A stretch of DNA of 64,000 nucleotides from Blastococcus sp. TML/M2B. GTDB taxonomy: Bacteria; Actinomycetota; Actinomycetes; Mycobacteriales; Geodermatophilaceae. Where the stretch lies: positions 496,001 through 560,000 of the forward strand of contig NZ_JAENZZ010000001.1 in the NCBI RefSeq assembly GCF_016612865.1, in the 5' to 3' direction. This document shows positions 4,904 through 55,755 of this stretch, piece by piece. How positions within the stretch are numbered: position 1 is the first letter of the stretch; the number at the start of each line of letters is the position of its first letter. Below the pieces are notes generated by a model. It had not been told where the DNA came from, did not search any database, and saw only the letters and a program-made list of their open reading frames with translations. The translations under genes were made by a program, and so were the position numbers.

Positions 4904-5387
4904 GTGCGTGGGCTCCCTGGTCGAGCGGAGGTGGGGACCGGGCTGGCACTCCTACCCGGCGACTGCCAATGATGCGCCATGACGCGGCCACCCGTCCACG
5001 ACGGTCGGCGAGCGTGGGCCTTGCGCCACGCGGCCGCCCACTCCCGACTCGCCACCCACGACGTCGCCGTGGAATCGAGACGCCCAGCCGCCACGACCGG
5101 CGTGGTACGGCTGGCGGAACAGCGCGGCGCTCGGTGACGCGGCCGCCGAGCAGGCCGTCGGGAGCTGTCGCGGCATCTTCGTCGCGGCAGAAGTCGCAGC
5201 TCAGGCTCCTGTCTTCACCTGCCGGTGCGGTGCGGCCACGACGTCACGGGAGTGGAGACACCGGCGCCACAGCGCAGTCGGCCCGCGTGTCCTGGCGCGA
5301 ACCCGTGCGCGGGTACGGGGGCCCTCCGCCGATCGACGAGTCGCCGGCCCTCCGCGAGGGGGTTGCAGGTGCGCTGCTGACCGGGCA
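4904..5387. other. Intergenic stretch with no convincing gene
   Basis: About 480 bases separate fmdB from the TIGR04222-like gene. I see no frame with family-like composition on either strand; the open frames present are Arg/Pro/Gly-rich shadows caused by GC content. The part nearest fmdB (4904-4960) would hold its promoter and includes an AGGAG-containing stretch on the minus strand. No tRNA fold, riboswitch core or strong repeat was recognised. Confidence 0.5.
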
Positions 5388-6050
5388 TCACCCGTCGCCG
5401 CCGGAGAAGCCACCCTGGGGGCCTCCTGCGCCGCCATAGCCGTAGTGCTCGCGCCCGCCGCGAGGTGAGCTCATCCGGGTGCGGTAGTCCTCCTGACCCA
5501 GGCTGCCGGGGTCGACCGCTCGCGAATTCTGGCGGTCACGGCGCGGCACGGGGACCGCCGCAGCGCGGACGAAGATCTCGTCGTGCAGCCGGCGGTCGGG
5601 CATCGTCTCCCTCCCGTGGAGCGCGACCTGGGCGGCGTTGCTGCCGGCGTCCTGCGTGTGTTCGGCGAACGATCGCAGGGCGCGTCGTCCCGCCGCCGTG
5701 GGGGTGTACGCGCTCGTGTGCCGGACGAGCCGGGACAGGGTGGCGCGGCGGACGAGCCCGGCCGCGGTGAGCCGCTGCAACTCCGGCGCCAGCTTCTGCT
5801 CGCGAACGAGCCGCCCGTGGATCTGGTCCACCGAGCTGTGTCCCCGGCCGGCGACCGCGTCCAGCACGGCGGCCTCGACGGGGTGCCCGGACGACGTCGC
5901 CTCGGCGCGGAACTCCCCGGAGGGTTCGACGCGGACGTGTCCGGCCTCCACCAGGGCCACGAGCGCGGTGTCCACCAGCCGAGGAACCCCGCCGGCGAGA
6001 ACCGCCGCGTCGTACACGTCGAGTGGTTGGCCGTCGCCGGGGAGCGCCAT
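5388..6050 (-). CDS. TIGR04222-like domain protein, copy 1
   Basis: This 220-residue protein is paralogous to the divergently transcribed gene at 6326. The shared core reads PLDVYDAAVLAGG, PRLVDTALVALVE, PSGEF, ATSSGHPVEAAVLDA, then GLVRRA and TAAGRRALR. This resembles the cytoplasmic winged-helix-like part of TIGR04222 membrane proteins of actinobacteria (AGGPxRVVDTALVAL). Unlike full-length members, no transmembrane segments are visible. The C-terminus ends in a Gly/Tyr-rich tail (HYGYGGAGGPQGGFSGGDG), similar in style to the Gly-rich tails of that family. Start is ATG 6050 or GTG 6056. Function unknown. Confidence 0.72.
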   Translation of the reverse strand: MALPGDGQPLDVYDAAVLAGGVPRLVDTALVALVEAGHVRVEPSGEFRAEATSSGHPVEAAVLDAVAGRGHSSVDQIHGRLVREQKLAPELQRLTAAGLVRRATLSRLVRHTSAYTPTAAGRRALRSFAEHTQDAGSNAAQVALHGRETMPDRRLHDEIFVRAAAVPVPRRDRQNSRAVDPGSLGQEDYRTRMSSPRGGREHYGYGGAGGPQGGFSGGDG

Positions 6051-6246
6051 GATCACCCGCCACCTCTCGGGGCCGTGGGAACCGCGGGTCCTGCGCGGGT
6101 GGTCCAGGGTTCCTCCGGAGATGACCGGAGCACAGGGCCGAAGGGACCGCCCAGGGTGTTGTGGAGGCCGCAACACCCCGCCGGCGAGGGTCACGTCCGC
6201 ACCCTTCGTGAGGGTGACCGCGAGCCCGGGGAGGGGGGTTCCCTAG

Positions 6247-6277
6247 GTCCCTGTGCACTCCGGGAGTGCAGCGGGAC
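6247..6277. promoter_or_regulatory. Hairpin/palindrome upstream of the TIGR04222-like copy 2
   Basis: The arms TGCACTC and GAGTGCA surround a CGG loop and are extended by GTCCC/GGGAC across a two-base mismatch. The element lies 49 bases before the ATG at 6326, in the 275-bp divergent intergenic region between the paralogues. It could be an operator or a 5'-UTR hairpin; which one cannot be told from sequence. Confidence 0.4.
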
Positions 6278-6325
6278 GATGCACGTGCGACGACCGGTTC
6301 TCCGCGACCCTGAAGGGCGGCGACC

Positions 6326-7015
6326 ATGACGACTCCCGAGAGCACACGCCCCCTCGACGTGTACGACGTGGCGGTACTGGCCGGTGGCCTGCCGAGGCTG
6401 GTGGACACCGCGGTCGTTGCGTTGGTCGAGTCCGGTCTGGTCCGCGTCGACCCGTCCGGCGAGTTCCACGCCGAGGCGACGTCGTCCGGGCATCCCGTCG
6501 AGGCGGCGGTGCTGGACGCGATCGGCAGCCGGGGGCACCGGTCGGTGGACGTGATCACCTCCCGGTTCCTGCACGACCGTCGGATGGATGAGGAGTTCCG
6601 CCACCTCACCCGGGACGGGCTGGTGCGCCGCGCCATCCCGGCCCGGCTCGTGGGAAAGACGCACGCGCACACGACTGCGGCCGGCCGGCGTGCCCTGCGG
6701 CAGTTCGCGGAGCGGCCGGAGAGCGACGGAGGCAGCGCCGTCCAGGTGGCCTTGCACGGGCGGGATGCGATGTCCGACGACCGCCTGCGCGCCGAGATCT
6801 TCGACCGCGCCCCGGTGGTCCTCCCGCCCCGTAGCGAGCGCCGGAACCCTCGGTCGGTCCACCCCAGCCAGCCCCACCGGCTGAGTTCCGTGATGACCGG
6901 GGAGCTCTACATGGACGGCGACCCCGCAGCCGCCGGCGGTCTCGCGGTGGACCGTGGCGCTGGCCCGTCGGGCGGCGGCGCGGGTTCCAGAGGCGACGTC
7001 GACGGCCGGGGCTGA
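6326..7015 (+). CDS. TIGR04222-like domain protein, copy 2
   Basis: This 229-aa protein is closely similar to the divergent neighbour over the first 150 residues (PLDVYDVAVLAGGLPRLVD, ATSSGHPVEAAVLDAIG, GLVRRAIPARLVGKTHAH, TAAGRRALRQFAE, VALHGRDAMSDDRLRAEIFDRAP). After about residue 165 the two diverge completely; this copy ends with a Gly-rich, low-complexity tail (GAGPSGGGAGSRGDVDGRG). No membrane segments are seen. The pair looks like a local inverted duplication. The start ATG follows a GGCGACC stretch rather than a strong Shine-Dalgarno. No function is assigned. Confidence 0.72.
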   Translation: MTTPESTRPLDVYDVAVLAGGLPRLVDTAVVALVESGLVRVDPSGEFHAEATSSGHPVEAAVLDAIGSRGHRSVDVITSRFLHDRRMDEEFRHLTRDGLVRRAIPARLVGKTHAHTTAAGRRALRQFAERPESDGGSAVQVALHGRDAMSDDRLRAEIFDRAPVVLPPRSERRNPRSVHPSQPHRLSSVMTGELYMDGDPAAAGGLAVDRGAGPSGGGAGSRGDVDGRG

Positions 7016-9119: not shown

Positions 9120-9727
9120 GTGGGCTCCGTTCGACGGGGGAGGTGCGGGCGGCTGATGATCTCCCACCCGCCCGTGGGGGTGACCACGGCGGTGACCCTG
9201 CGGTCGTGCGGCTCGGCGGGCAGGTCGTCGAGGAGTTCGCCGTCGAACACGACGGCGACGAGGACGGCGTCCGGCCGGGCGTGCGCCAGCGCGCGGTCGT
9301 AGTAGCCGCCGCCGCGGCCCAGCCGCACCCCGCTGCGGGACACCGCCAGCGCGGGGACGACGACGGCGTCCGCGGACCCGATCGCCTCCGGACCCAGCCG
9401 CGGGCCGACCGGCTCGAGCAGCCCGAACCGGCCCGGGGCCAGCCGGCCGTCGTGCTCGGCCCACGCCAGCTCGCGGCCCCGGACCACGGGCAGCAGCACC
9501 CGGGTGCCGGCTCCGGCGAGCTCGCCCGGCAGCCGCCCGTGCCCGGGCTCGACCGCCTCCGGCACGTGCGCCGCGACCGTGCGCGCCGTCGCGAGCCCCG
9601 TCCGCAGCGCGGCCGCCACGGCGGTCGCCGCCCGCTCGCGCTCGGCCGCAGGCCGGGCCCGGCGCGCGGCGAGCAGCCGGGCCCGCAGCGCGGCCTTGGC
9701 CGGCACCACGTCGTCGGCAGGAGGCAT
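9116..9727 (-). CDS. 5-formyltetrahydrofolate cyclo-ligase
   Basis: The 203-residue protein fits the 5-FCL/MTHFS family: an N-terminal basic helix (KAALRARLLAARRAR), RVLLPVV, and the diagnostic GVRLGRGGGYYDR near residue 140, followed by VFDGELLDDLPAEPHDRRV. It converts 5-formyl-THF to 5,10-methenyl-THF with ATP in the cytosol. It is divergent from galU with only 27 bases between the start codons, so the two promoters must overlap the neighbouring coding regions. Its last bases form the start of accDA. In mycobacteria the 5-FCL gene also lies next to galU. Confidence 0.94.
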   Translation of the reverse strand: MPPADDVVPAKAALRARLLAARRARPAAERERAATAVAAALRTGLATARTVAAHVPEAVEPGHGRLPGELAGAGTRVLLPVVRGRELAWAEHDGRLAPGRFGLLEPVGPRLGPEAIGSADAVVVPALAVSRSGVRLGRGGGYYDRALAHARPDAVLVAVVFDGELLDDLPAEPHDRRVTAVVTPTGGWEIISRPHLPRRTEPT

Positions 9728-9754
9728 CCCGGCAGGCTAGCTAGGCTGCCCGCC

Positions 9755-10687
9755 ATGACCAGCCCGGGCGCCCGACCTGCACGCAAGGCCGTCATCCCCG
9801 TCGCGGGGATGGGCACGCGCTTCCTCCCCGCCACCAAGGCGGTGCCAAAGGAGCTCCTGCCGGTCGTCGACCGCCCGGCGCTGCAGTACATCGTCGAGGA
9901 GGCCGCCCGCGCGGGCCTGCCCGAGGTGCTCATGGTGACCGGCCGCAACAAGGGCGCCATCGAGGACTTCTTCGACAGCACCCCCGAGCTGGAGACGGCG
10001 CTGGAGAAGAAGGGCGACGCGGCCCGGCTGGACGCCGTCCGCTCCTCCACCGACGTCGCGCAGGTGCACTTCGTGCGGCAGGGCGAGGCCCGCGGCCTCG
10101 GGCACGCCGTCCTGCAGGCGGCGGCGTTCGTCGGCGACGAGCCGTTCGCGGTCCTGCTCGGCGACGACCTCATCGACGAGCGCGACCACCTGCTCGAGCA
10201 GATGCTCGCGGTGCAGGCCGAGCACGGCGGCTCGGTCATCGCGCTGCTCGACGTCGGCATGGAGAACATCGACAAGTACGGCGCGGTCGCCGTCGAGCCC
10301 GGCTCGCAGCCGGCCCTCGACGGGGACGAGGTCGTCGCCGTCACCGGGCTGGTCGAGAAGCCGCCGGTCGAGGAGGCGCCGAGCAGCCTGGCGATCATCG
10401 GCCGCTACGTGCTGGCCCCCGAGGTCTTCGCCGTGCTCCGCGAGACCGAGCCCGGCCGCGGCGGGGAGATCCAGCTGACCGACGCGCTGGCCACCCTCGT
10501 GGCCCGCGGCGAGCCGGTCCACGGCGTCGTGTTCAGCGGCCGCCGGTACGACACCGGCGACAAGCTGGACTACCTCAAGGCGGTCGTCCGCCTCGCCGCC
10601 GAGCGCGACGACCTGGGCCCCGCGCTGCGCTCCTGGCTGCGCGAGTTCGTCGGCGAGCTGCCCGCCGAGGGCGCGTCGCCGGCCTGA
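9755..10687 (+). CDS. galU: UTP-glucose-1-phosphate uridylyltransferase GalU
   Basis: The 310-aa nucleotidyltransferase has the GalU signature GMGTRFLPATKAVPKELLP, then RPALQYIVEEA, LGDDLID, LVEKPP and GGEIQLTDAL. It makes UDP-glucose from UTP and glucose-1-phosphate, the donor for many glycans, including probably the exopolysaccharide encoded 24 kb downstream. A TAGGCT (-10-like) hexamer ends seven bases before the ATG, which suggests a leaderless transcript. It precedes glp-rimJ-glpR, an order shared with mycobacteria. Confidence 0.97.
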   Translation: MTSPGARPARKAVIPVAGMGTRFLPATKAVPKELLPVVDRPALQYIVEEAARAGLPEVLMVTGRNKGAIEDFFDSTPELETALEKKGDAARLDAVRSSTDVAQVHFVRQGEARGLGHAVLQAAAFVGDEPFAVLLGDDLIDERDHLLEQMLAVQAEHGGSVIALLDVGMENIDKYGAVAVEPGSQPALDGDEVVAVTGLVEKPPVEEAPSSLAIIGRYVLAPEVFAVLRETEPGRGGEIQLTDALATLVARGEPVHGVVFSGRRYDTGDKLDYLKAVVRLAAERDDLGPALRSWLREFVGELPAEGASPA

Positions 10688-40051: not shown

Positions 40052-40306
40052 CCGTTTCCGGGCCCGGCGGGCCGGCGCGAGATGACACACCGGGGATCCG
40101 TCGCGGCCCGGGAGCGGACCGTCACGCACGGTGAGAAATGCCGCCGTCCTGCACAGGGCGTGATCGGGCTACGAGCCGCTGACCTGCGCCGATGCACCTG
40201 ATCGGGTGACGGTCGCAACCTGGCGTGAGCGTGATCGTCACGCTTAGTGTCGGCCCGTCCGGGGGGATCATGGGGATTCCCCGCGGCTGAGCCATGGGGG
40301 AAGACG
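40052..40306 (+). promoter_or_regulatory. Upstream region of giant protein 1 with palindrome AGCGTGATCGTCACGCT
   Basis: The 17-base palindrome at 40228-40244 has seven-base perfect arms around TCG and lies 62 bases before the ATG. The right half, GTCACGCT followed two bases later by GT, also appears upstream of the second giant gene (near 51380). No gene is visible in the stretch. The ATG is preceded by GGGGGAAG. A shared regulator of the two giants is possible but unproved. Confidence 0.45.
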
Positions 40307-43300
40307 ATGACGGCACGTGCTCCGGGGACTGCCCGGCGCTCGATCTCGGGTGGAGTGGCGCTCCTCCTGGTCAGCGGGGCCGTCGGCCTCATGGCACCGG
40401 CCGCATCGGCGGACTCCGCGCCGCTGGACCCCGCGAACCCGGCCACGCCGGTGACCGTGACGGCCGACCCGCTGCCCACCGTGCAGATCGACGGCGTCGC
40501 CTGGGACCAGGTCGTCGTCGGCAACACGGTGTACGTGGCCGGCAAGTTCGCGACCGCGCGCCCCGCCGGCGCCCGCGCCGGCACGCAGCAGGTCGTCCGC
40601 AACAACCTGCTCGCCTACGACATCCGCACCGGTGAGCTGATCAGCTCCTTCGCGCCCGACCTCAACGGCCAGGCGCTGGCGATCACCGCCACCCCGGACG
40701 GCCGCCGCATCTTCGTCGGTGGTGACTTCACCCGCGCCAACGGCGAGGTCCGCAACCGGATCGCCGCCTACGACACCGCCACCGGCCAGCTGGCCACCGA
40801 CTTCCGGCCCAGCGTCAGCGGCCAGGTCCGCGCGCTCGCCGCCACCGACTCGGCGGTCTACCTCGGCGGCAGCGTCTCCGCCGTCGGCGGGGCCAGCCGG
40901 ACCAAGCTCGCCGCGGTCTCCGCGTCCACCGGCGCGCTGCTCCCGTGGGCCCCGGTCCCGGGTGCCTCCGCGACCAAGGGCAGCAACGAGGTGCTCGCGC
41001 TCGTCGTGACCAGCGGTGGCGCCCAGGTCGTGGCCGGCGGACGGTTCGCCAGCCTGAACGGCACCGCGGCCACCGGCGTCGGCGCGCTCGACGCGGTCAC
41101 CGGCGCGACGCGGCCGTTCGCCGTCAACAAGCTGATCACCAACCAGGGCTCCAGCTCCGCGATCTGGGGCCTGTCGGCCACCGGCGACACCGTCTTCGGC
41201 AGCGCCTACGACTTCGGCGGCCCGGGCAACCTCGAGGGCACCTTCGCGGCGAACGCCAACGGTGGTGACCTCCGGTTCGCGGCCTACTGCCGTGGCGACA
41301 ACTACGACAACTTCGCCACCAGCCAGGTGCTCTACATCGCCTCGCACATGCACCGCTGCGACTACATCGGCGGCTGGGCGGACTCCGCGCCGTCGCAGGT
41401 CTGGAAGCACGGCAACGCGTTCGGCCTGACCCCGACCCGGACCATCGTCGGCGGCTTCACCAACGCCAACTTCAGCGGCAAGCCCGCGCCGGCGCTGCTG
41501 CACTGGTACCCCTCGTTCTCCCAGGGCAGCGTCACCGGCCAGTACCAGGCCGGCTGGACCGTCGAGGGCAACGAGCAGTACGTCGCCTACGCCGGCGAGT
41601 TCCCGCGGGTGAACGGCACCAACCAGCAGGGCCTGGTCCGCTTCGCGCTGCCGTCGATCGCCCCGAACACGACCGGCCCCGCCGCCACCGGCATGGAGCC
41701 CACGGTCACCGCGGTGGGTGCCGGCGCGGTCCGCGTCGCGTGGAAGACCACCGACGACATGGACAACGAGAACCTGACCTACCGCGTGTACCGGGACGAC
41801 GAGGTCGCCCCGATCCACACGGTGACCCAGGCGTCGAGCTGGTGGAACAAGCCCACCATCGGCGTCGGTGACACCGGCCTGGCGGCCGGCACGCACCGGT
41901 ACCGCGTCACGGCCACCGACCCGTCGGGCAACGTCGCCACCTCCGGCTGGACGACGGCCACCGTCGCCACCGGCGGCGCGGCCCGCCCGTACGCCGACGT
42001 GGTGCGCGCCGACGGCGCCAGCGACCACTGGTCGCTCGGCGAGGCCTCCGGCACGGCCGCCTACAACCTGGGCCGTCCGCTGGACATGACCGCGGGCACC
42101 GGCGTGGGCCGCGGCCAGGCCGGCGCGCTGCGCGGGGACAGCGACACCGCGGTCAGCCTGAACGGCACCTGGTCGGCCTTCGCCTCGACCCGCGCGGCCG
42201 TCCCCGGCCCGCAGACGTTCACCGTCGAGGCCTGGGTCAAGACCACCTCGCGCGCCGGTGGCCGGCTCGTCGGCTTCGGCGACCAGGCCACCACCACCAG
42301 CGGCAGCTACGACCGCCACCTGTACCTCGACACCAACGGCCGGGTGAACTTCGGCGTCTACCCGGGCAGCACCCGGGTCGTCACCAGCCCGACCGCGGTT
42401 AACGACGGCGCCTGGCACCACGTCGCGGGCACGCTCGGCGCGCAGGGCATGGTCCTGTACGTCGACGGCAAGCAGGTGGCCGGGCGCACCGACACCACGT
42501 CGGCGCAGGCCTACAACGGCTACTGGCGGATCGGTGCCGACAACGTGTGGAGCGGGTCGTCGACCTTCTCCGGCTCGATCGACGAGGTCGCGATCTACCC
42601 GACCGCGCTGCCGGCCGACCGGATCGCCGCGCACGAGGCCGTCGGCCGCACCGGGACGGCGGCGAACGTCGCCCCGACGGCCGCCTTCACCTCGACGGCG
42701 TCGTTCCTGGACGCGACCTTCGACGCGACCGGTTCCACCGACACCGACGGCACCATCGCCTCCTACGCCTGGACCTTCGGTGACGGCACCAGCGGGACCG
42801 GCGCGACGCCGGCGCACACCTACCGCGAGGCCGGCACCTACCAGGTGCAGCTCACCGTCACCGACGACCGCGGGGCCACCGACACCCGCACCGGCACGGT
42901 CAGCGTCGTCGCGCCGCCGCCGAACGAGGCCCCCACGGCCGCGTTCAGCATCGCCGGCTCCGGCCGCACCGGGGTCTTCGACGCCGCGGCGTCCACCGAC
43001 ACCGACGGCACCGTCGTCTCCTACGCCTGGGCGTTCGGCGACGGCGCCACCGGCAGCGGCGCGCAGGCCACGCACGAGTACGCCGAGGACGGCACGTACA
43101 CCGTGACCCTCACGGTCACCGACGACGACGGCGCCACCAGCTCCGTCGAGCGCTCGATCACCGTGACCGGCTCGATGCTCGCCACCGACGCCTTCGACCG
43201 GTCGGTGACCGGTGGTCTGGGCACCGCCGACGCCGGTGGTCCCTGGACGGCGTACGCGGGTGCCTCGCGGCAGTCGGTCACCGGCGGCGACGCCGTCCTG

Positions 43301-44803
43301 ACCATGGCCAAGGGCACCAACACCGGCTCCGCGCTGGGCTCGATCGGCCAGACCGACGCCGACGTCCGCACGTCCTTCTCGCTGTCGTCGGTGCCCACCG
43401 GCGGCGGGGCGATGGTCTACGTGGGTGCCCGTCAGGTCGACACGAACACCGCCTACAAGGCGCGGGTCCGCGTCCTGGCCGACGGCAGCGTGCGGGCCGC
43501 CCTGGTGCGGTTCGCCGGCTCGTCCGACGAGACTCTGATCGGTTCCGAGGTGCTCGTGCCCGGGCTGACCTACACGGCCGGTACCCGGCTGAACGTGCGG
43601 GTGCAGGCGTCCGGCACCGGCACGACCGACCTGTCGCTGAGCGTGTGGGCGGCGGGCTCGGCCGAGCCGACCACGCCGACCGCGGTGCGCACCGACTCGA
43701 CGGCGTCCCTCCAGGTGCCCGGGTCGATCAGCCTCGGCGGCTACCTCTCGGGCAGCGCCACCGCCTCGGTGGAGCTCCGGTTCGCCGAGCTGACCGCGTC
43801 GCCGATCGGTGCGCTCCCCGTGACCCCGCCGGTCACCCCGCCGGTCACCCCGCCGGCCAACGTGGCCCCCACGGCGGAGTTCGGCACCGTGGTCACCGGT
43901 CTCTCGGTGGCCGTGGACGCCTCGGCGTCGCGCGACTCCGACGGCACCGTCGCGAGCTACGCCTGGGAGTTCGGTGACGGCAGCACGGGGACCGGCGTCA
44001 CCGCCGGCCACCCGTACGCCGCGGCCGGCACCTACACCGTCCGGCTCACCGTGACCGACGACCGCGGTGCCGTCGGCACCACGACGCGCACGGTCACCGT
44101 CACGGCGCCCGAGCAGCCCGGCACCCCCGAGCAGCCCGGCACCCCGGAGCAGCCCGGCACCCCGGCGCCGGTCGCGGCCGACGCCTTCGAGCGGGCGGTC
44201 ACCGGTGCCCTGGGCACCGCCGACCTGGGCGGCGTCTGGTCGGCGTGGGCCGGCGCGTCCCGCCAGTCCGTGTCCGGCGGTGCCGCCGTCCTCGCCATGG
44301 GCAAGGGCACCAACACCGGGTCGATCCTGCCCATCGGCCGGACGGACGCCGACGTGCGCACCGCCTTCACCATGTCGTCGGTGCCCACCGGCGGCGGGGC
44401 GATGGTCTACGTCGGCGCCCGCCAGCTCGACGCCAACCAGGGCTACAAGGCGCGGGTCCGCGTCCTGGCCGACGGCAGCGTCCGCGTGTCGCTGGTCAAG
44501 CTGACCGGGAGCACCGACGAGGTGCTGATCGGTTCCGAGGCGCTGCTGCCCGGCCTCACCTACACGCCGGGCACCGAGCTCAACGTGCGGGTCGTGGCCT
44601 CGGGCACCGGCACGACGAACCTGTCGCTGACGGTGTGGGCCACCGGAACCCCGGAGCCGACGACGCCGACGGTGGTGCGCACCGACTCCACGGCGGCGCT
44701 CCAGGTCGCCGGTGGGATCACCCTCGGCGGGTACCTCTCGGGCAGCGCGACCGCGCCGGTCGAGGTCCGCTTCACCGAGGTGCGGGTCACCCCCGTCGCC
44801 TGA
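40307..44803 (+). CDS. Giant secreted surface protein 1 (propeller-FN3-LamG-PKD, repeated C-terminal domain)
   Basis: The 1498-residue protein has a signal peptide (RRSISGGVALLLVSGAVGLMAPAASA, cleavage near 40). By residue: a beta-propeller-like region (50-445; VYVGGDFTR-type blades), an FN3-like domain (460-560; DMDNENLTYRVYRD), a LamG/concanavalin-like domain (565-785; FTVEAWVKTTS, GAWHHVAGTLG, GSIDEVAIYP) and two PKD domains (790-955; SYAWTFGDG). A domain of about 200 aa without a name known to me follows (957-1165), then PVTPP repeats, a third PKD, EQPGTP repeats, and a second copy of the unnamed domain (1288-1498). No wall-anchor signal is present. An adhesin or matrix protein is the best guess. 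Pmt glycosylation is plausible. Confidence 0.9.
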   Translation: MTARAPGTARRSISGGVALLLVSGAVGLMAPAASADSAPLDPANPATPVTVTADPLPTVQIDGVAWDQVVVGNTVYVAGKFATARPAGARAGTQQVVRNNLLAYDIRTGELISSFAPDLNGQALAITATPDGRRIFVGGDFTRANGEVRNRIAAYDTATGQLATDFRPSVSGQVRALAATDSAVYLGGSVSAVGGASRTKLAAVSASTGALLPWAPVPGASATKGSNEVLALVVTSGGAQVVAGGRFASLNGTAATGVGALDAVTGATRPFAVNKLITNQGSSSAIWGLSATGDTVFGSAYDFGGPGNLEGTFAANANGGDLRFAAYCRGDNYDNFATSQVLYIASHMHRCDYIGGWADSAPSQVWKHGNAFGLTPTRTIVGGFTNANFSGKPAPALLHWYPSFSQGSVTGQYQAGWTVEGNEQYVAYAGEFPRVNGTNQQGLVRFALPSIAPNTTGPAATGMEPTVTAVGAGAVRVAWKTTDDMDNENLTYRVYRDDEVAPIHTVTQASSWWNKPTIGVGDTGLAAGTHRYRVTATDPSGNVATSGWTTATVATGGAARPYADVVRADGASDHWSLGEASGTAAYNLGRPLDMTAGTGVGRGQAGALRGDSDTAVSLNGTWSAFASTRAAVPGPQTFTVEAWVKTTSRAGGRLVGFGDQATTTSGSYDRHLYLDTNGRVNFGVYPGSTRVVTSPTAVNDGAWHHVAGTLGAQGMVLYVDGKQVAGRTDTTSAQAYNGYWRIGADNVWSGSSTFSGSIDEVAIYPTALPADRIAAHEAVGRTGTAANVAPTAAFTSTASFLDATFDATGSTDTDGTIASYAWTFGDGTSGTGATPAHTYREAGTYQVQLTVTDDRGATDTRTGTVSVVAPPPNEAPTAAFSIAGSGRTGVFDAAASTDTDGTVVSYAWAFGDGATGSGAQATHEYAEDGTYTVTLTVTDDDGATSSVERSITVTGSMLATDAFDRSVTGGLGTADAGGPWTAYAGASRQSVTGGDAVLTMAKGTNTGSALGSIGQTDADVRTSFSLSSVPTGGGAMVYVGARQVDTNTAYKARVRVLADGSVRAALVRFAGSSDETLIGSEVLVPGLTYTAGTRLNVRVQASGTGTTDLSLSVWAAGSAEPTTPTAVRTDSTASLQVPGSISLGGYLSGSATASVELRFAELTASPIGALPVTPPVTPPVTPPANVAPTAEFGTVVTGLSVAVDASASRDSDGTVASYAWEFGDGSTGTGVTAGHPYAAAGTYTVRLTVTDDRGAVGTTTRTVTVTAPEQPGTPEQPGTPEQPGTPAPVAADAFERAVTGALGTADLGGVWSAWAGASRQSVSGGAAVLAMGKGTNTGSILPIGRTDADVRTAFTMSSVPTGGGAMVYVGARQLDANQGYKARVRVLADGSVRVSLVKLTGSTDEVLIGSEALLPGLTYTPGTELNVRVVASGTGTTNLSLTVWATGTPEPTTPTVVRTDSTAALQVAGGITLGGYLSGSATAPVEVRFTEVRVTPVA
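43820..43855 (+). repeat. Three tandem 12-bp units coding VTPP
   Basis: The unit GTCACCCCGCCG (first copy GTGACC...) is repeated three times without spacers. It encodes a Pro/Thr linker before the third PKD domain of giant protein 1. Such tandem coding repeats can change number by slippage, altering linker length. Confidence 0.85.
44111..44164 (+). repeat. Three tandem 18-bp units coding EQPGTP
   Basis: The unit GAGCAGCCCGGCACCCC plus one variable base is repeated three times. It encodes the flexible linker between the third PKD domain and the last copy of the unnamed domain in giant protein 1. Copies differ only at the last base, so the repeat is recent or maintained by conversion. Confidence 0.88.
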
Positions 44804-48090: not shown

Positions 48091-48163
48091 CGAAACCGCG
48101 TTGACGGCGCGGGGACGCCCACCGGGCAGCCGCAGCTCGAGGACACGGGCCGCGGGTGCGCGC

Positions 48164-48177
48164 TCAGCTCTTGGTGA
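48164..48177. repeat. 14-bp direct repeat, left copy (TCAGCTCTTGGTGA)
   Basis: It is identical to 49297-49310 and abuts the left end of the element. The right copy encodes the last codons and stop of the Wzz-like gene (minus strand). The bases on either side of the two copies differ, so the repeat is exactly 14 bases, as expected of a target-site duplication or attachment-site pair. Confidence 0.85.
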
Positions 48178-49296
48178 CCTCGGCAGCAAGTGTTGATCGT
48201 TGGTGCCTAAAGCGCCGCCAGGCCCGGCTGGCCAGCCTGGCCGTGACCGTCCTCGACGCCAACGGCAACCCGGTGCCGAGGCGACCGCACCACCCCGCCA
48301 CGCCGAAACGCCGGCGCCCGCTGCGGTTCGCGCGCACCGGCTGACCCCACGGGCGCTGATGACGTGCGGCCGCACGGGCTCGCGACCCTCAGACCAGTAC
48401 TGGCCCCGCGAACAGCGGATCGTCCAGCAGCCACCGTTGCAGGGCCGCCGGGTCGGGCAGCGCGGGCTCGCCTGCTCCGGAGGAACCCGGCACAACCGCT
48501 GGCCAGTGCTGACCGAACCAGCGCCGTTCCCGGTCGGTGAGACGCGACCAGCGCCGCCGCAGCAGCGACACCACCGCCTCGGCCTGGCCGTCATCCTCAC
48601 CGACGTGCCGCAGCAGGTAGACCACGGCGAGCACGACCGGAGACAGGTCATCGCCAGCCTCGGTCTTGCGCGTACGCCCGAGCGTTGCCGTCAGCCGAGC
48701 GAGCACCGCGTACCAGGCGCGCCCGTCGCCGACGGCGGCCAGACTCATCACCGCGTAGTCACGGACAGCCGCATCGGCGTCGCCCACCGCCTCGGATAGC
48801 TCCGCGCTGGCACTGGCCTTCTCGCGCTTGGCAAGGGCGAGCAGCGCCGCGCAGCGCAGATCGGAGGTGCCGCGACCTCGCGAAGCGATGGCGCGCCGCA
48901 ACACGGCGCCACCGTGAGGGCCATCGACCTCACCGAGCGCAGCCACGACAACCACGGGCCGCCAGCCGCGCAGACCGTCCAGGCCGGCAAGCAGCCTGTC
49001 GCCCTCAGCGCCGAGCTCGACCGCCGCCCGGACCGCCGCCTCGAACGTGGAGGTCCTCGACGACCGAAGTCCCGACGCGATCTCCTCCATCCGCGAGGAA
49101 GTGGCCCCCACGCCGGGTTCGTCTGCCGCAGTCACGCGCTCGATCGTGCCGCCTCGTCCTTCGCGGACCACTCATTCGACACGCCGACCACGCCGTTGCC
49201 CGGCCCCCGCCCGAAGCGAGAGCACGCTGACGCAGAGCCAATCGCCGGCCGGGACGGCCCCGATGTAGGCACCCTGATCAACACTTGCTGCCGAGG
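48178..49296. mobile_element. 1.1-kb element with perfect 21-bp terminal inverted repeats and no transposase
   Basis: The left end (48178-48198, starting CCTCGGCAGCAAGTG) is the exact reverse complement of the right end (49276-49296). The similarity continues inward imperfectly (GGTGCCTA motif) for about 15 further bases. A 14-bp direct repeat flanks the element. The content is one minus-strand HEAT-repeat gene (48389-49135) plus about 190 bases at the left without a clear gene. By eye the GC content is somewhat lower than in the neighbourhood. Without a transposase it looks non-autonomous, mobilised in trans, or a remnant. It landed at the 3' end of the Wzz-like gene without changing its last codons. 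Confidence 0.8.
48389..49135 (-). CDS. HEAT-repeat protein carried by the mobile element
   Basis: The protein of about 248 aa consists of paired helices typical of HEAT/armadillo arrays: AAVRAAVELGAEGDRLLAGLDGLRGWRPVVVVAALGEV, RCAALLALAKREKASASAELSEAVGDADAAVRDYAVMSLAAVGDGRA and VVLAVVYLLRHVGEDDGQAEAVVSLLRRRW. It ends WLLDDPLFAGPVLV. No signal peptide or membrane segment is visible. HEAT arrays bind proteins or nucleic acids; no specific role can be read. GTG 49135 is chosen (cGAGGCGG upstream); GTG 49171 would add 12 residues. It is the only gene within the inverted repeats, so it is cargo or an accessory factor. Confidence 0.72.
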   Translation of the reverse strand: MTAADEPGVGATSSRMEEIASGLRSSRTSTFEAAVRAAVELGAEGDRLLAGLDGLRGWRPVVVVAALGEVDGPHGGAVLRRAIASRGRGTSDLRCAALLALAKREKASASAELSEAVGDADAAVRDYAVMSLAAVGDGRAWYAVLARLTATLGRTRKTEAGDDLSPVVLAVVYLLRHVGEDDGQAEAVVSLLRRRWSRLTDRERRWFGQHWPAVVPGSSGAGEPALPDPAALQRWLLDDPLFAGPVLV

Positions 49297-49310
49297 TCAG
49301 CTCTTGGTGA
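49297..49310. repeat. 14-bp direct repeat, right copy
   Basis: TCAGCTCTTGGTGA matches 48164-48177. On the minus strand it encodes the terminal Leu-Thr-Lys-Ser-stop (from its second base) of the Wzz-like protein, showing that the element sits exactly behind that stop codon. Confidence 0.85.
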
Positions 49311-50494
49311 GCGCGGCCTTCTCGCGGGTGCGGACCAGGTTGGCGCCGGCCGCGGTCTCGGGGGTGGCCGGGATGCCGGACAGGGCGCCGGCCAGGCCGG
49401 TGCGGCGGCGGGGGAGCAGGACCACGGCGAGCGGCAGGGCGCCCGCGGCGGTGAGCAGGGCGCGGATCTCGCTCAGGTCCGGCGGCGTCGACCCGGCCGG
49501 CCGGGGCCACCAGGATCACGCCGTCGTAGCGCTCGCCGATGATCCGCCACTCCGACAGCGGGACGCGGGTGGTCGCCGTCGCCAGCTGCACCTCGAACGG
49601 CTTGGCCGCCTTGGCCGGGCCGCCGACGGGACCGGTCACGTTCGCAGGGACGCCGCCGTCGACCAGCTCGGCCGCGACCTCGTCGGCGAACGAGCGGGCG
49701 ACCTGGTGGTCGTCCTCGGTGTCCACGCCCAGGACGACGGCGCGCACCGGCATGCTGCCGGTCGGAGCGGCGAGCCGCCGCGCGACCAGGGCGGACGGGC
49801 GCCCGGCGAACCGGCGGGACCGGCGCCGCCCGGTGGCGGTGAGGACGACGAGGTCCTCGCCGCCGGGCCCCCAGGCGCCGCGGACGTCGTCCTCGTCGTG
49901 CAGGCGGGTGTCGGTGCGGCTGCGGATCACCGCCACGGCGGCCCCCAGCCCGAGGCCGACGACCAGGCCGAGCCCGAGGAGCAGGGCGGGCTGGGCGGAG
50001 ACCGGGGTGGTCGGGGCGCTGGCCGGGTCGGTGACGGTCAGGCTGACCGGCGAGTCGCCCTCGGCCGGGGTCTCCAGCTGCTCGACCACGCGGCGGAACT
50101 CGTCGGCGACGGCGTTGGCGATCGCCGCCGCGTCGTCCGCGTCTTCGTCGGTCACGGTGATGTCGATCTGCGAGCTCTCCAGCGGGCTGTCCGCCGAGAC
50201 GCGGGCGCGCAGCTGCGCCACCGACGTCGTCAGGTCCATGTCCTGGATGACCGGACCCAGGACCGCCTCGCTGCGCGCCACGTCCGGGTAGCTGGTCACG
50301 CGCTGCTTGATGAACTGCGCGCCGCTCGTGCCGCTCTCCGAGGAGGCGGGAGCCACGAAGACCGACGCCCGGGCCTCGTACGTGGGGGAGCCGCTCAGCA
50401 CCACGACGGCGGCGAGGGCGACGGCCGCGAGGGCCACGCCCGTCCACGTCAGCCAGTACCGGCGCAGGGCCGTCAGGTAGTCCCGGAGTTCCAT
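49297..50494 (-). pseudogene. Wzz-like polysaccharide chain-length protein with degenerate kinase-like domain, split by a one-base insertion
   Basis: The N-terminus MELRDYLTALRRYWLTWTGVALAAVALAAVVVLSGSPTYEARASVFV is the Wzz motif and TM1. A periplasmic helical region follows, then TM2 (PALLLGLGLVVGLGLGAAVAVI) and a cytosolic part (RAVVLGVDTEDDHQVARSFADEVAAEL...YDGVILVAPAGRVDAA). At about 49479 an extra base shifts the frame. When it is removed, DLSEIRALLTAAGALPLAVVLLPRRR...TREKAALTKS-stop follows, about 398 residues in all. The cytosolic part aligns with CpsD-type tyrosine kinases but lacks a Walker A GKS/T, so it is probably inactive. It controls polymer length (family knowledge). Confidence 0.82.
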
Positions 50495-50807: not shown

Positions 50808-51297
50808 ATGTCGATGCCGGACCAGCCGCGGGCCACCGCACCCGTCGTGGGGTACGCCCCGGGCGCCTACGACCTGTTCCACGTCGGCCACCTCAACATC
50901 CTCAAGCACGCGGCGGCGCACTGCGACGTCCTCATCGCCGGCGTGGTCTCCGACGAGATGCTGGTCCTGACCAAGGGCCGGGGCGCCGGTCATCCCGCTC
51001 GCGGAGCGCATGGAGATCGTGCGCAGCCTGCGGTTCGTCGACGACGTCCACGCCGAGGTCGTGCCGGACAAGATCGACACCTGGCGCGAGGTCCGCTTCG
51101 ACGTCATCTTCAAGGGCGACGACTGGCGGGGGACCCCCAAGGGCGAGCGCCTGGAGCGGGACTTCGCCGAGGTCGGCGTGACCGTGCAGTACTTCCCGTA
51201 CACGATGCACACCTCCAGCACCCTGCTGCGCAAGGCGCTGGCCGCGATCGAGGCCGAGACGCCCACCGGGCGCGGCGCCCGGGCGCTCAGCTCCTGA
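50808..51297 (+). pseudogene. Cytidylyltransferase-family nucleotidyltransferase, split by a one-base insertion
   Basis: The 5' frame encodes VVGYAPGAYDLFHVGHLNILKHAAAHCDVLIAGVVSDEMLVLTKGR, with the HxGH motif of TagD/PCT-type enzymes. At 50980-50983 a run of four G replaces three. With one removed the protein continues APVIPLAERMEIVRSLRFVDDVHAEVVPDKIDTW, FKGDDWRGTPKGERLERDF and the RTEGISTT-like TMHTSSTLLRKAL. The product is about 162 residues. The family couples CTP to phosphorylated alcohols such as glycerol-3-phosphate. It is divergent from the Wzz-like gene and upstream of giant protein 2. Confidence 0.85.
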
Positions 51298-51495
51298 CCG
51301 ACCGGCTGCCCCGGGCGCTCACGAACGGGTGAGTTCGCGCCCGTAGCGCCCCTCCCAGGTGACACCGCACCTTGACCGGTGGTCACGCTCCGTCATCATC
51401 TGCTCCGGCCGCAAGGCCCGACGCCGGCTCCGCGCCGGCACCCCGGCTCTCCGCTCAGGAGGCCGGTCGTGCACCACCTCATCGGGGAGAAGGAC

Positions 51496-54400
51496 ATGCA
51501 GCGAGGCGTCGTGCGCGGCGGGCAGGGCCGACGGGCCCTCTCCGCCCTGGTGGCCGGAGCGCTCGCCGGCGCCCTCATCGCCCTGGGGCTGGCGGTGCCC
51601 GCACCCGCCTCCGCGGCCGAGCCCGCGCCGGTCCCGCTCCCCGACACGGTCTCCGCGGACGCCCTGCCGACCGTGCAGACCAACGGGGTCGTCTGGTCGA
51701 TGGTCACCGTCGGCACCACCGTCTACGCGACCGGCAGCTTCACCACCGCGACGCCGGCCGGCGGTGGCGCCGGCACCCCGCGGGCCAACCTGCTCGCCTT
51801 CGACATCCGCACCGGCGCGCTGATCCCCGGCTTCGACCACCGGCTCAACGGCCAGGGGCGCATCGTCGTCGCCTCGCCCGACGGGTCGCGCATCTACGTC
51901 GGCGGTGACTTCACCACCGTCGACGGCATCGCCCGCGGGCACATCGCGGCCTTCGACGTCGCCACCGGCGCGCTCGTGCCCGGCTTCGCCCCGACGACCA
52001 ACCAGGCCGTGTACTCGATCGCGGTCACCGGCTCCACGGTCTACGCAGGCGGCAACTTCACCACCGCGGGCGGCCAGTCCCGCACGCGGCTGGCGGCCTT
52101 CGACGCCGCCAACGGCGCCCTGACCAGCTGGGCGCCGACGGCGAACAACACCGTCCGCGGCATCGTCGTCGACCCGACCGGCACCCGGGTCGTGCTCGCG
52201 GGTCAGTTCGGCCAGGTCAACGGCATCACCGCGTACTCGATCGCCTCCGTGGACACCGCCGGCGGCGACGCGAAGTCGCAGCCCTGGGGCATCAACAACA
52301 CCGGCGACCCGGCCGGCGCCTGGAGCCTGAAGATGTACGGCGGCGTGGCCTACGCCAGCGTCTACGCCTTCCAGATCGGCAACGTCGAGGGCGTCGTCGC
52401 GTTCGACCCGACCACGCTGGACCTGGTGTGGATGAGCGACTGCCACGGCGACCCGTACGACACGTGGGCCGACGGCACCGTCCTCTACAACGCCAGCCAC
52501 GCGCACGACTGCGAGACCGCCGGCAGCTTCCCCGACCCGAACCCGCGGACGTGGCAGCGCGCGGTCGCGATGACCGTGGCGGCGACCGGCCTCCTCAAGG
52601 CGACGACCGACCTGCCCCGCTACACCAGCTGGGAGGGTCGCCCGAGCCCGACGATCCTGCACTTCTGGCCGACGCTGAACGCGGGCACCTACACCCAGCA
52701 GTTCCAGGGCCCGTGGTCGGTGACCGGGGCCGGCGACTACGTCGTCTTCGGCGGTGAGTTCACCTCCGTCAACGGCCGCGCCCAGTCCGGCCTGGTCCGC
52801 TTCGCCCGTCCGAACGTGGCCCCCAACGACCGCGGCCCGGAGCTGACCGCCGCGCAGATGCGGCCGCAGGCCACGTCGGTCACCGCCGGCGAGGTCGAGG
52901 TCCGCTACCCGTCGTCGTACGACATGGACGACTCGACGCTGACCTACCAGGTCTTCCGCGACGGCGGCACCACGCCGGTGCACACCGCCACCGTCGAGTC
53001 CGCGTGGTGGAACCGGCCGGTGCAGCAGTTCACCGACACCGCGCCCGCGGGCGCCACGGTGAGCTACCGCGTCGTCGTGACCGACCCGTACGGCAACACG
53101 GTGACCAGCTCGCCGTCCAACGCGGCCCAGGTCGCCACCGCCACGAGCGCCTACGCCCGGGGCGTGCTGGCCGACGGCCCGGTGCAGTACTGGCGGGTGG
53201 GTGAGCCCAGCGGCACCACCTCCTTCGATCACGCCGGCACCACGAACCTGACGACCGGGTCCGGCGTGGGCCGCGGCGCCGAGGGCGCCGTGCCGGGGAA
53301 CACCGCCGTGACCACCGACGGCACGGCCGCCGGCCTGGCCTCCACCGCGGTCGCGGTGACCACGCCCGGCACCGCGTTCTCGGTCGAGGCCTGGGTCCGC
53401 ACCACGTCGACCACCGGCGGCGTCATCGCCCAGTACGGCAGGGACCTGCCGGCCGGCGACATCGCCAACACCGACCGGGCGCTGTACGTCGACGACGGCG
53501 GACGGGTGTCCTTCGGGCTCTCCTCCCGCGCCAGCACCGCTCCGCGGGCGACGACCTACAAGACGGTGCGCAGCACCGAGCCGGTCACCGACGGGCGGTG
53601 GCACCACCTCGTGGCCACGGTCGGCACCGGCGGCACCGTGCTCTACGTCGACGGCGCCCCGGTGGCGAACGACCCGACGATGACGCGGGCCAACACCCGC
53701 GTCGCCTCCGGCTACTGGATGTTCGGCGGCGGCACCGTGGTCTCGGGCGTCCCGAACGCCCCGGCCGGCCCCGCCCTCGCCGGTGCGCTGGACGAGCTCG
53801 CCGTGTACCCGTCGACGCTGACGGCGGAGCAGGTGGCGGCGCACTTCGCGCTGGCCACCGCCCCGGCCCCGAACGCCGCGCCGACGGCGGCGTTCACCTC
53901 GACGGCGACCGACCTGACGGTGGCGGTGGACGCGACCGCGTCGACCGACGCCGATGGCACCGTGGCCTCGTACTCCTGGAACTGGGGCGACGGCAGCGCG
54001 GCCGGCACCGGTGCGACCGCGTCGCACACCTACGCCGCTGCCGGCACCTACGCGGTCACGCTGACGGTCACCGACGACGACGCCGCGACCGGCACGACCA
54101 CCCGGGACGTCACGGTGACGGCACCGCCCGTCGTCGTCCCCCCGGAGGCCGGTGTCGTCGCCGCGGACGCCTTCGGCCGGACCGTCTCCGGTGGTCTCGG
54201 GACCGCCGACACCGGTGGCCCCTGGACCGCCGCGGTCGGTGCTGCGCGCCTGTCGGTGACGCCGGGCGTGGGCGAGCTGGGCCTGCCGGGTGCCGGTAAC
54301 AACACCGGCGCCTACCTGGGCGGGGTTGCGCAGACCTCGGCGGACGTGCGGACGTCGTTCCGGCTCGCCGCGATGCCCACCGGCGCCGCCGGCACCTACG

Positions 54401-55755
54401 TCTACGTCAGCGGCCGCCGCGTGGCGGCCGACAAGGAGTACCGGGTCCGCGTGCGGGTCGCGGCGGACGGCCAGGTCTGGCTCGCCCTGTCGCGGATCTC
54501 GGGCACCGAGTCCTGGCCGGGCGGCGAGATCGTCGTCCCGGGTCTGCGGTACGCCCCGGGCTCCCTGCTCAACGTCCGGGTGCAGGTGACCGGGGCCGGC
54601 AGCACCGACATCCGCGCGACCGTGTGGGCCGACGGCACGGCGGAGCCGACCGCGCCGCAGCTCACCCGGACCGACACCACCGCGGCGCTGCAGGCGCCCG
54701 GCGGCGTGGGCCTGGCCGCCTACCGGCCGACGTCGAACACGGCCGCCTCCGCGGTGCGGTTCACCTCCTTCCGGGTCGCCCCGGTCGGCGCGCCCGCGCC
54801 GGTGGTGAACCAGGACCCGGTCGCGGCGTTCACCGCCACCCCGGCCGGGCTCGGGATCACCGTCGACGGCACCGGTTCCACCGACGCCGACGGCACCGTG
54901 GCCTCCCACAGCTGGAACTGGGGCGACGGCACGCCGGCCGGCTCGGGAGCGACCGCGACGCACACCTACGGCGCCGCGGGCACCTACACGGTGACGCTGA
55001 CGGTGACCGACGACGACGGCGCGACCGCCACCACCACCCGCCCGGTCACCGTGACCGCGCCGGTCGAGGAGCCGCCGGTCGAGGAGCCCCCGGTCGAGGA
55101 GCCGCCGACCGAGCAGCCCCTCGTCGCCGACGAGTTCGACCGGTCGGTGACCGGCGGTCTCGGGACCGCCGACGTCGGTGGCGCCTGGACCGTCGCGGCC
55201 GGTGCCGCCCGGCAGTCGGTGAGCGGCGGCGCGGGTGTCCTCGCCTCGGTCAAGGGCACCAACACCGGCTCGTTCGTGGGCGGGGTGTCCCAGACCCGGA
55301 CGGAGGTGCAGACCCGGCTGTCGCTGGGCTCCGTGCCGACCGGCGGCGGCTCCAGCGTCTACGTGATCGGGCGCCGCGTCGCCGCCAACCAGGAGTACCG
55401 CGCCCGGGTGCGCGTCCTGGCCGACGGCAGCGTGCGCGTGGGCATGGTCCGGCTGTCCGGCACCAGCGACGACGTGCTGATCGGTGCCGAGGTGCTCGTC
55501 CCGGGCCTCACCTACACCGCCGGCACGGAGCTTGATGTGCGCGTCCGGGTCGCCGGCACCGGCACCACGGAGCTCGCGGCGACGGTGTGGAAGGCGGGCA
55601 CGGCCGAGCCGGTCGCGCCGACGCTGACCCGCACCGACACCACCGCGGCGCTGCAGGCGCCCGGCAGCGTGGGCCTGTTCACGTACCTGTCCGGCAGCGC
55701 CACCGCTCCGGTCGAGGTCCGCGTGGCCACGTTCCTCGCCCGGGTGCTCCCGTGA
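51496..55755 (+). CDS. Giant secreted surface protein 2, paralogue of giant protein 1
   Basis: The 1419-residue protein has a signal peptide (RRALSALVAGALAGALIALGLAVPAPASAA). By residue: a beta-propeller-like region (50-440; RIYVGGDFTTVDG, VYAGGNFTTAGG), FN3-like (455-555; YDMDDSTLTYQVFRD, ESAWWNRP), LamG (553-790; FSVEAWVRTTS, GRWHHLVATVG, GALDELAVYP) and PKD 1 (793-875). The unnamed domain follows (882-1095), then PKD 2 (1103-1186), a VEEPP linker and a second copy of the unnamed domain (1208-1419). It has two PKD domains where giant protein 1 has three. GGGGAGAAGG precedes ATG 51496. No sorting signal is seen. It is co-transcribed with the small anchored protein that follows (GTGA overlap). 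Confidence 0.9.
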   Translation: MQRGVVRGGQGRRALSALVAGALAGALIALGLAVPAPASAAEPAPVPLPDTVSADALPTVQTNGVVWSMVTVGTTVYATGSFTTATPAGGGAGTPRANLLAFDIRTGALIPGFDHRLNGQGRIVVASPDGSRIYVGGDFTTVDGIARGHIAAFDVATGALVPGFAPTTNQAVYSIAVTGSTVYAGGNFTTAGGQSRTRLAAFDAANGALTSWAPTANNTVRGIVVDPTGTRVVLAGQFGQVNGITAYSIASVDTAGGDAKSQPWGINNTGDPAGAWSLKMYGGVAYASVYAFQIGNVEGVVAFDPTTLDLVWMSDCHGDPYDTWADGTVLYNASHAHDCETAGSFPDPNPRTWQRAVAMTVAATGLLKATTDLPRYTSWEGRPSPTILHFWPTLNAGTYTQQFQGPWSVTGAGDYVVFGGEFTSVNGRAQSGLVRFARPNVAPNDRGPELTAAQMRPQATSVTAGEVEVRYPSSYDMDDSTLTYQVFRDGGTTPVHTATVESAWWNRPVQQFTDTAPAGATVSYRVVVTDPYGNTVTSSPSNAAQVATATSAYARGVLADGPVQYWRVGEPSGTTSFDHAGTTNLTTGSGVGRGAEGAVPGNTAVTTDGTAAGLASTAVAVTTPGTAFSVEAWVRTTSTTGGVIAQYGRDLPAGDIANTDRALYVDDGGRVSFGLSSRASTAPRATTYKTVRSTEPVTDGRWHHLVATVGTGGTVLYVDGAPVANDPTMTRANTRVASGYWMFGGGTVVSGVPNAPAGPALAGALDELAVYPSTLTAEQVAAHFALATAPAPNAAPTAAFTSTATDLTVAVDATASTDADGTVASYSWNWGDGSAAGTGATASHTYAAAGTYAVTLTVTDDDAATGTTTRDVTVTAPPVVVPPEAGVVAADAFGRTVSGGLGTADTGGPWTAAVGAARLSVTPGVGELGLPGAGNNTGAYLGGVAQTSADVRTSFRLAAMPTGAAGTYVYVSGRRVAADKEYRVRVRVAADGQVWLALSRISGTESWPGGEIVVPGLRYAPGSLLNVRVQVTGAGSTDIRATVWADGTAEPTAPQLTRTDTTAALQAPGGVGLAAYRPTSNTAASAVRFTSFRVAPVGAPAPVVNQDPVAAFTATPAGLGITVDGTGSTDADGTVASHSWNWGDGTPAGSGATATHTYGAAGTYTVTLTVTDDDGATATTTRPVTVTAPVEEPPVEEPPVEEPPTEQPLVADEFDRSVTGGLGTADVGGAWTVAAGAARQSVSGGAGVLASVKGTNTGSFVGGVSQTRTEVQTRLSLGSVPTGGGSSVYVIGRRVAANQEYRARVRVLADGSVRVGMVRLSGTSDDVLIGAEVLVPGLTYTAGTELDVRVRVAGTGTTELAATVWKAGTAEPVAPTLTRTDTTAALQAPGSVGLFTYLSGSATAPVEVRVATFLARVLP
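55063..55107 (+). repeat. Three tandem 15-bp units coding VEEPP
   Basis: The unit GTCGAGGAGCCGCCG is repeated three times (the middle copy differs by one base), with a degenerate fourth copy after it. It encodes the acidic Pro-rich linker between the last PKD domain and the final unnamed domain of giant protein 2, the position where giant protein 1 has EQPGTP repeats. Confidence 0.86.

Follow-up and report, generated by a model that had tools for sequence, protein, structure and literature searches.

A unit with inverted ends at a Wzz-like stop codon

At the end of a gene for a Wzz-like chain-length determinant, the window (the whole stretch of 64,000 nucleotides that was analysed) carries a unit of 1119 bp (48178-49296) that is bounded by perfect 21-bp terminal inverted repeats (TIRs; 21 of 21 positions identical) and flanked by direct repeats that are identical at 14 of 14 positions. 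Read from the left, the unit consists of a TIR, the remnant of an exonuclease gene on the plus strand, a convergent gene for a HEAT-like protein on the minus strand and the right TIR (Table 1). Its two ends are 82% alike over about 55 bp, and in 100 shuffles of the window no TIR match occurred at three or fewer mismatches. The ends are of the [CG][CT]TCGGCAG type and score 36.7 and 36.6 bits with a profile, R1, that includes the window ends themselves, the independent comparison being with the ends of an element in Geodermatophilaceae bacterium URHB0062 (genome G027), where 18 of 21 positions are identical at both ends. Coordinates and shuffles thus bear out the perfect 21-bp TIRs, the 1119-bp unit and the 14-bp flanking repeat of the original prediction.

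Table 1. Coordinates of the features at the locus within the window.
Feature	Position	Strand	Remarks
Palindrome around insertion site, left arm CGCGCTCA	48159-48166	.	uninterrupted arms also in G020
14-bp direct repeat, left copy (TCA-N8-TGA)	48164-48177	.	TCAGCTCTTGGTGA
Left TIR	48178-48198	+	21 bp; profile match runs on to 48216
DEDDh exonuclease gene remnant, 3' end	48216-48344	+	last 40 residues, 70% identical to G027 protein
Cargo gene, 260-aa HEAT-repeat-like protein	48389-49171	-	sole intact gene of the unit
Right TIR	49276-49296	-	21 bp; profile match runs on to 49259
14-bp direct repeat, right copy	49297-49310	.	TCAGCTCTTGGTGA; 49297-49299 is the Wzz-like stop codon
Palindrome, right arm TGAGCGCG	49308-49315	.	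pairs with left arm CGCGCTCA
Host gene, Wzz-like chain-length determinant	49297-50494	-	Pfam Wzz 6.1e-8; frameshifted at about 49475-49500

The Wzz-like protein ends in ..KAALTKS* and the TGA of its gene falls inside the right 14-bp repeat. The change of reading frame in this gene lies upstream of the insertion, so that the gene as assembled is not intact, though the repeat preserves its end. Of the claim that insertion preserves the host product, the sparing of the gene end therefore stands, but the assembled gene is already frameshifted upstream. A neighbouring cytidylyltransferase-like gene (50808-51300, named by eye) is apparently split between two frames near 51000, and the proximity of the two frame breaks hints at assembly errors. 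The polysaccharide genes of this region are flanked by two very large exported-looking proteins (40247-44803 and 51379-55755), which have similar repeats and, by eye, look like paralogs.

The cargo protein matches Pfam HEAT_2 weakly (E = 3.9e-4; 21.1 bits, under the curated cutoff of 27.7), and its single-sequence AlphaFold model is mostly helical and of poor quality (mean pLDDT 56.8). It had been described as the only clear gene of the unit; it is the sole intact one, but the exonuclease gene remnant had been missed. The HEAT gene was not found in the 107 other genomes of the bacterial family that were searched, and distant relatives (28-35% identity) occur in four other genomes among 394 searched in the class. 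No R1-type ends were found within about 1.5 kb on each side of these relatives (five loci in the four genomes), so the HEAT gene family exists outside such units. The protein had no match among plasmids and no relative in viral contigs. One of the five loci is located downstream of an RHS-repeat gene and has its orientation (L154 1930-3986) and another adjoins a DUF6980 gene, neighbours that hint at an immunity protein and are too thin for a claim; the HEAT protein would be a passenger, possibly an orphan immunity protein. A defence role was considered and rejected: PADLOC places the exonuclease in the candidate system PDC-S48 (1.2e-25) and with Cas-associated DEDDh nucleases (2.8e-22), which we read as a shared nuclease domain, and its match to the HEAT protein is weak (2.6e-4).

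A full-length relative and its wider family

The end sequence was sought with up to three mismatches in 112 genomes of the bacterial family. Single TIR-like matches at three mismatches occurred at chance level (nine real matches versus 16 with a reversed control pattern), so that only inverted pairs count, and one other genome, G027, has such a pair. It bounds an element of 4577 bp (L024 5099-9675; L024/L040) that is flanked on both sides by the perfect 14-bp repeat TCAGGTTCTTCTGA, and the host gene stops at the TGA of this repeat. The products of the element are a transposase-like protein of 577 aa, a DEDDh exonuclease of 548 aa (Pfam RNase_T, 3.5e-18), whose gene overlaps with that of the transposase-like protein by start and stop codons, and a TPR protein of 332 aa from a convergent gene; no published name for the element was found in searches of the open-licence literature. 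The original prediction had proposed to look for a transposase flanked by the same ends, and G027 has a transposase-like gene between nearly the same ends.

In the window, the exonuclease remnant is a stretch of 129 bp on the plus strand that encodes RQARLASLAVTVLDANGNPVPRRPHHPATPKRRRPLRFAR and soon stops. It matches the G027 protein over 40 aa (E = 3e-16), its position and orientation relative to the ends are those found in the G027 element, and beyond the last 40 residues nothing of the DEDDh exonuclease remains in the unit. The two elements have in common their ends, a 14-bp repeat of the form TCA-N8-TGA at a stop codon, the exonuclease 3' end and a far-end cargo gene that points inward. 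They differ in that the G027 element has the transposase-like gene, a full exonuclease and a TPR cargo instead of HEAT; no significant transposase match was obtained inside the window unit. The right side of the G027 element is complex. Directly after it comes a 115-bp unit with TIR-like ends (L024 9676-9818), bordered on each side by a further copy of the 14-bp repeat. Beyond the third such copy, which agrees at 13 of 14 positions, about 9.7 kb of other DNA precede the next gene, and this further DNA counts against the main reading given below.

The name transposase is a family call from weak similarity and context, and the protein is regarded here as a putative enzyme. Pfam gave no meaningful match for seven members (best E 0.072). 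The member from Blastococcus mobilis matched the NCBIfam models IS1249 (1.8e-9) and IS256 (2.5e-5), and the G027 protein matched IS1249 at 0.012, in all cases far below the curated cutoffs; the best scores are 37.3 bits against 300 for IS1249 and 23.4 against 150 for IS256. What links the proteins to IS256/IS1249 transposases is that the Blastococcus mobilis member resembles these distantly in sequence, whereas their length (551-673 aa as called), a Cys/His-rich N-terminus (by eye), the exonuclease partner and the cargo set them apart. Residues D268, D354 and E482 are invariant in an alignment of five sequences (A1) and may form a DDE triad; in an alignment of seven (A3), one of them incomplete, only D268 and D354 are invariant. 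The AlphaFold model built with seven sequences reached a pLDDT of 69.2 and a pTM of 0.61, and no PDB chain matched it at E<=0.001.

Relatives of the transposase were found in four of 298 genomes of the order; in the class, four of 394 genomes gave relatives, all partial matches and one with a stop. One scan of a collection of 84,980 genomes, limited to two peptide patterns, yielded nine loci, G027's own among them, from Geodermatophilus chilensis, Blastococcus mobilis, three Nocardioides and MAGs labelled Micromonosporaceae, Nitriliruptoraceae and Actinomycetes. The G027 transposase had no match among plasmids and no relative in viral contigs. The exonuclease comes after the transposase in 10 of the 11 distinct family loci (L024, L036, L037, L038, L039, L041, L043, L044, L045, L046 and L047). 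At L046 none was found within 1.5 kb after the transposase match, and the distant relatives L121 and L122 have no exonuclease. Frameshifts split the exonuclease of L038 and the transposase of L045.

The cargo, compared for the window, G027, L037, L039, L041, L043, L044 and L045, varies from locus to locus; L036 lies at a contig end. L043 (Nocardioides; 9470-10461) combines an ArsR-type regulator with a cadmium transporter (Pfam Cad, 2.2e-29) and L044 (Nocardioides; 9480-10480) has the same pair by sequence; L045 carries TetR, a zinc dehydrogenase and DUF6326, L041 carries DUF4232, and L037 and L039 carry proteins without an assigned family. As read from these genes, the cargo of the family is interchangeable (HEAT, TPR, cadmium transporter, dehydrogenase). 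At L041, an IS3-like element (5008-6467, by eye) lies between exonuclease and cargo, and the exonuclease end is unlike that of the relatives.

Target sites and flanking repeats

Ten two-ended elements were tabulated for flanking repeats. Exact repeats measure 14 bp at the window and G027, 9, 9, 9 and 10 bp at L038, L043, L047 and L044, and 7 bp at L039; imperfect ones occur at G021 (13/14), L041 (10/14) and L045 (7/14). At the junction of TCGGCAG-type ends the motif TC[AG]-N8-TGA is present in 19 of 29 cases, against 0 of 29 for any of 13 other offsets, where 10 of the 19 ends had formed the motif and two had been recognised by it, the choice of A or G was admitted once part of the ends were known, and the ends of one element, as well as neighbours that share a spacer, are not independent. 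Among the other ends, which had no part in building the motif, 7 of 17 fit, six of them with strict TCA. Both window ends are flanked by the motif, and the 14-bp repeat does mirror a preferred target, in line with the earlier suggestion that it may reflect site-specific insertion.

Four of the five two-ended TCGGCAG-type elements lie directly next to a stop codon that closes an open frame of 72 codons or more, L045 having none. The gene that ends there is backed by relatives for the window and G027 and by the open frame alone for G021 and L041, open frames being weak evidence in GC-rich DNA, and L041 has such a frame on both sides. A second type of end, CCTGTTCGG, marks a sister branch and was found in three Nocardioides elements and in L038 from the window's own family. 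All four are inserted in the loop of a long palindrome (for each, p<=6e-4 versus 20,000 random sites of the same locus), and these palindromes look like terminators and are putative as such. A phylum survey of the CCTGTTCGG end gave matches in 2 of 396 genomes, one each with two mismatches. The window site shows both motif and palindrome, with the arms CGCGCTCA and TGAGCGCG around an 8-base loop (p = 0.012). Targeting of long hairpins as a general rule was rejected, since it holds weakly for the window and fails for G027, G021, L039, L041 and L045 (p = 0.20, 0.60, 0.23, 0.65 and 0.93, respectively).

Whether the whole 14 bp or only part of it is duplicated upon insertion is evenly balanced in our judgement. 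If the true target duplication were the central 8 bp (N8), with inverted ends that begin with TGA, a 14-bp repeat would arise because the target itself is TC[AG]-N8-TGA. In accordance with such a duplication, the left copy at G021 ends in TGA and the right one in CGA with the 8 bp between them identical, TGA stands directly outside 22 of 29 ends, the CCTGTTCGG branch has repeats of 9-10 bp, and IS256-type transposases make duplications of 8-9 bp. However, the repeats of the window and G027 are perfect over 14 bp, as both readings predict, and at L041 and L045, where both ends bear the motif, only five and two of the central 8 bp are shared, which neither reading predicts; decay or recombination between copies, the sole explanations that we can offer, may account for this mismatch.

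Uninterrupted sites were found for the window and for G027. The closest Wzz relative in the genus (genome G020, 65% identity) has a gene end that reads CGCGCTCA-CCGGTCGC-TGAGCGCG without an insert, compared to CGCGCTCA-CCAAGAGC-TGAGCGCG for the joined window site in gene direction. The loop sequences differ, and so this is a homologous site and not the same allele; in the remaining nine Wzz-like loci, which are less closely related (45-60%), that palindrome is lacking by eye. At the G027 site the host gene runs straight to the next gene in all 15 genus relatives, and no end matching the TIR profile was found in the 25 loci, made up of 10 Wzz-like ones and these 15. Where G027 has its TCA, the triplet is missing from all 15, which suits a sequence preference and could also be a later change. 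For the empty-site check that had been proposed, G020 provides a homologous palindrome, and mobility is supported, at the level of sequence comparison, by that uninterrupted Wzz site.

Origin of the window unit and its place among known systems

The window unit is very probably a non-autonomous transposon that derives by internal deletion from a transposase-exonuclease element with HEAT cargo. The exonuclease remnant in matching place and direction argues for a deletion derivative, and the missing transposase gene for a derivative rather than an autonomous member of the family. In the ancestor, genes for a transposase, a DEDDh exonuclease and the cargo would have followed one another, in this order, between two TIRs, and one internal deletion, before or after insertion and of about 3.3 kb as estimated from coordinates, would have removed the transposase and the exonuclease except for its last 40 codons, leaving both ends and the HEAT gene in the cargo slot. 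The unit is seated in the TCA-N8-TGA palindrome over the Wzz-like stop codon. An IS1249-like transposase-like protein would cut at these ends, and a G027-type protein could move the window unit in trans; the exonuclease may process strand ends during transposition, as suggested for KolobokD (PMC9587614).

No transposase of the G027 family was found at E<=1e-8 in the unit's own genome (96.8% complete). The unit would therefore be stranded unless a helper arrives, and mobilisation in trans is something that we infer. The original prediction had offered mobilisation in trans or a new kind of small element; the latter gives way to a deletion derivative, and the former keeps the standing just given. 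As a whole, its picture of a mobile, HEAT-bearing unit that lacks a transposase and lies on the Wzz stop codon agrees with the transposase-bearing relative and the uninterrupted site.

A different view would see in the unit an immobile, decayed relic, left from a transposon deleted long ago, with a HEAT gene retained by selection or drift. The lack of a helper in the own genome agrees with this, and so does the copy number: multiple copies with the same ends had been expected as proof of mobility, but in the own genome and 22 other genomes of the genus no second copy of the whole unit was found, with matches of at most 94 bp besides itself and its own ends, and the copy number thus gives no sign of recent movement. 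The HEAT frame, however, is open, and the TIRs and 14-bp repeats are perfect, suggesting a fairly recent insertion. We therefore hold a relic to be possible, though on the doubtful side.

The preferred deletion origin also has to be weighed against a system of gene cassettes, in which one-gene, transposase-less TIR units would occur as a rule, be mobilised in trans with the help of transposase-exonuclease elements and be stacked in tandem at TC[AG]-N8-TGA sites in an integron-like manner, albeit by transposition. A TIR profile built from ten ends matched all 108 genomes of the bacterial family at E<=1, which is noise, and at E<1e-3 gave 15 places in six genomes, eight of them, in three genomes, outside the model. 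Among the units so far seen is a transposase-less one of 483 bp with an intact DUF4440 gene in Blastococcus mobilis, a second case that would favour cassettes. Short related units measure 110-135 bp. A spacer of exactly 14 bp separates one end from the next at L114 and L117 (TCAGGAGCAGCTGA and CCGTGAGCAGCTGA; TCAGGTCACAGTGA), and this spacing, found also beside the G027 element, indicates that units can stack. On the other hand, only two cargo-bearing transposase-less units were seen, no matching repeat could be seen by eye at the ends of the DUF4440 unit, and the exonuclease scar in the window unit points to a chance deletion; a regular cassette system thus appears unlikely. In Blastococcus mobilis (L025 4834-5441), a 113-bp empty unit adjoins the 483-bp DUF4440 unit. 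More speculative again is a transposon counterpart of the integron, in which transposase-exonuclease elements would help one-gene cassettes that land harmlessly at stop codons or hairpins and stack behind regenerated 14-bp TC[AG]-N8-TGA sites, the exonuclease being needed for precise insertion.

Chance inverted repeats around a chromosomal HEAT gene can practically be dismissed, as nothing but the missing second copy favours them and they are contradicted by the shuffles (0 of 100), the homologous transposon with nearly the same ends in G027, the exonuclease remnant and the uninterrupted sites.

Integron gene cassettes are single-gene units in a row with short spacers, and the stacked units resemble them in these respects; unlike such cassettes, compared here by layout, the units bear perfect TIRs and target repeats. 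Transposase-less units with passengers are also termed PATE, and MITEs by definition have no coding cargo and a length of a few hundred bp and are not known to carry a gene as large as one for 260 aa. The window unit, with a 260-aa open frame in 1119 bp and the scar of a partner exonuclease, differs from MITEs and falls outside that definition. With passenger-carrying transposase-less units and MITEs, as described in the part of PMC10969869 consulted, it shares two ends, the lack of a transposase and the need for an outside enzyme.

According to the consulted part of PMC4923244, IS1272/TnSha1 of the IS1182 family inserts in hairpins and carries a passenger gene, and the insertion of IS1272 is blunt, removes part of the stem-loop and leaves no duplication. 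The CCTGTTCGG branch is like IS1272, so described, in its hairpin insertion; unlike IS1272, the elements studied here show duplications of 7-14 bp. Blunt insertion with stem-loop loss of the IS1182 type is also not what is found in the window, where a 14-bp repeat is present and both palindrome arms are retained. KolobokD is presented in the excerpts of PMC9587614 as a eukaryotic DNA transposon lineage that pairs a DDD/E transposase with a DEDDh (DnaQ) exonuclease, thought by its authors to trim 3' ends during transposition, and a DEDDh nuclease is also reported for P and piggyBac elements in the excerpts of PMC3627910. G027-type elements resemble KolobokD, on that account, in combining a transposase with a DEDDh exonuclease. 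The two differ in that KolobokD elements are animal elements and Kolobok makes TTAA-specific duplications of 4 bp, and the excerpts of PMC9587614 and PMC3627910 mention no bacterial case. A search of excerpts from the open-licence literature found no bacterial element with transposase and DEDDh exonuclease.

Taken from sequence data, these results point to an actinobacterial transposon family that is apparently undescribed in the portions of the open-licence literature covered, and of which the window unit would be a real, deleted member. The transposase-like protein of the family matches no Pfam model and has a DEDDh partner that, within those portions, is otherwise met only in eukaryotic elements. 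Insertion at gene ends spares the end of the host protein and would make the family a natural system for safe-site insertion, and its residues, ends and targets are clear enough for tests. The window unit may illustrate how a one-gene, transposase-less unit can arise.
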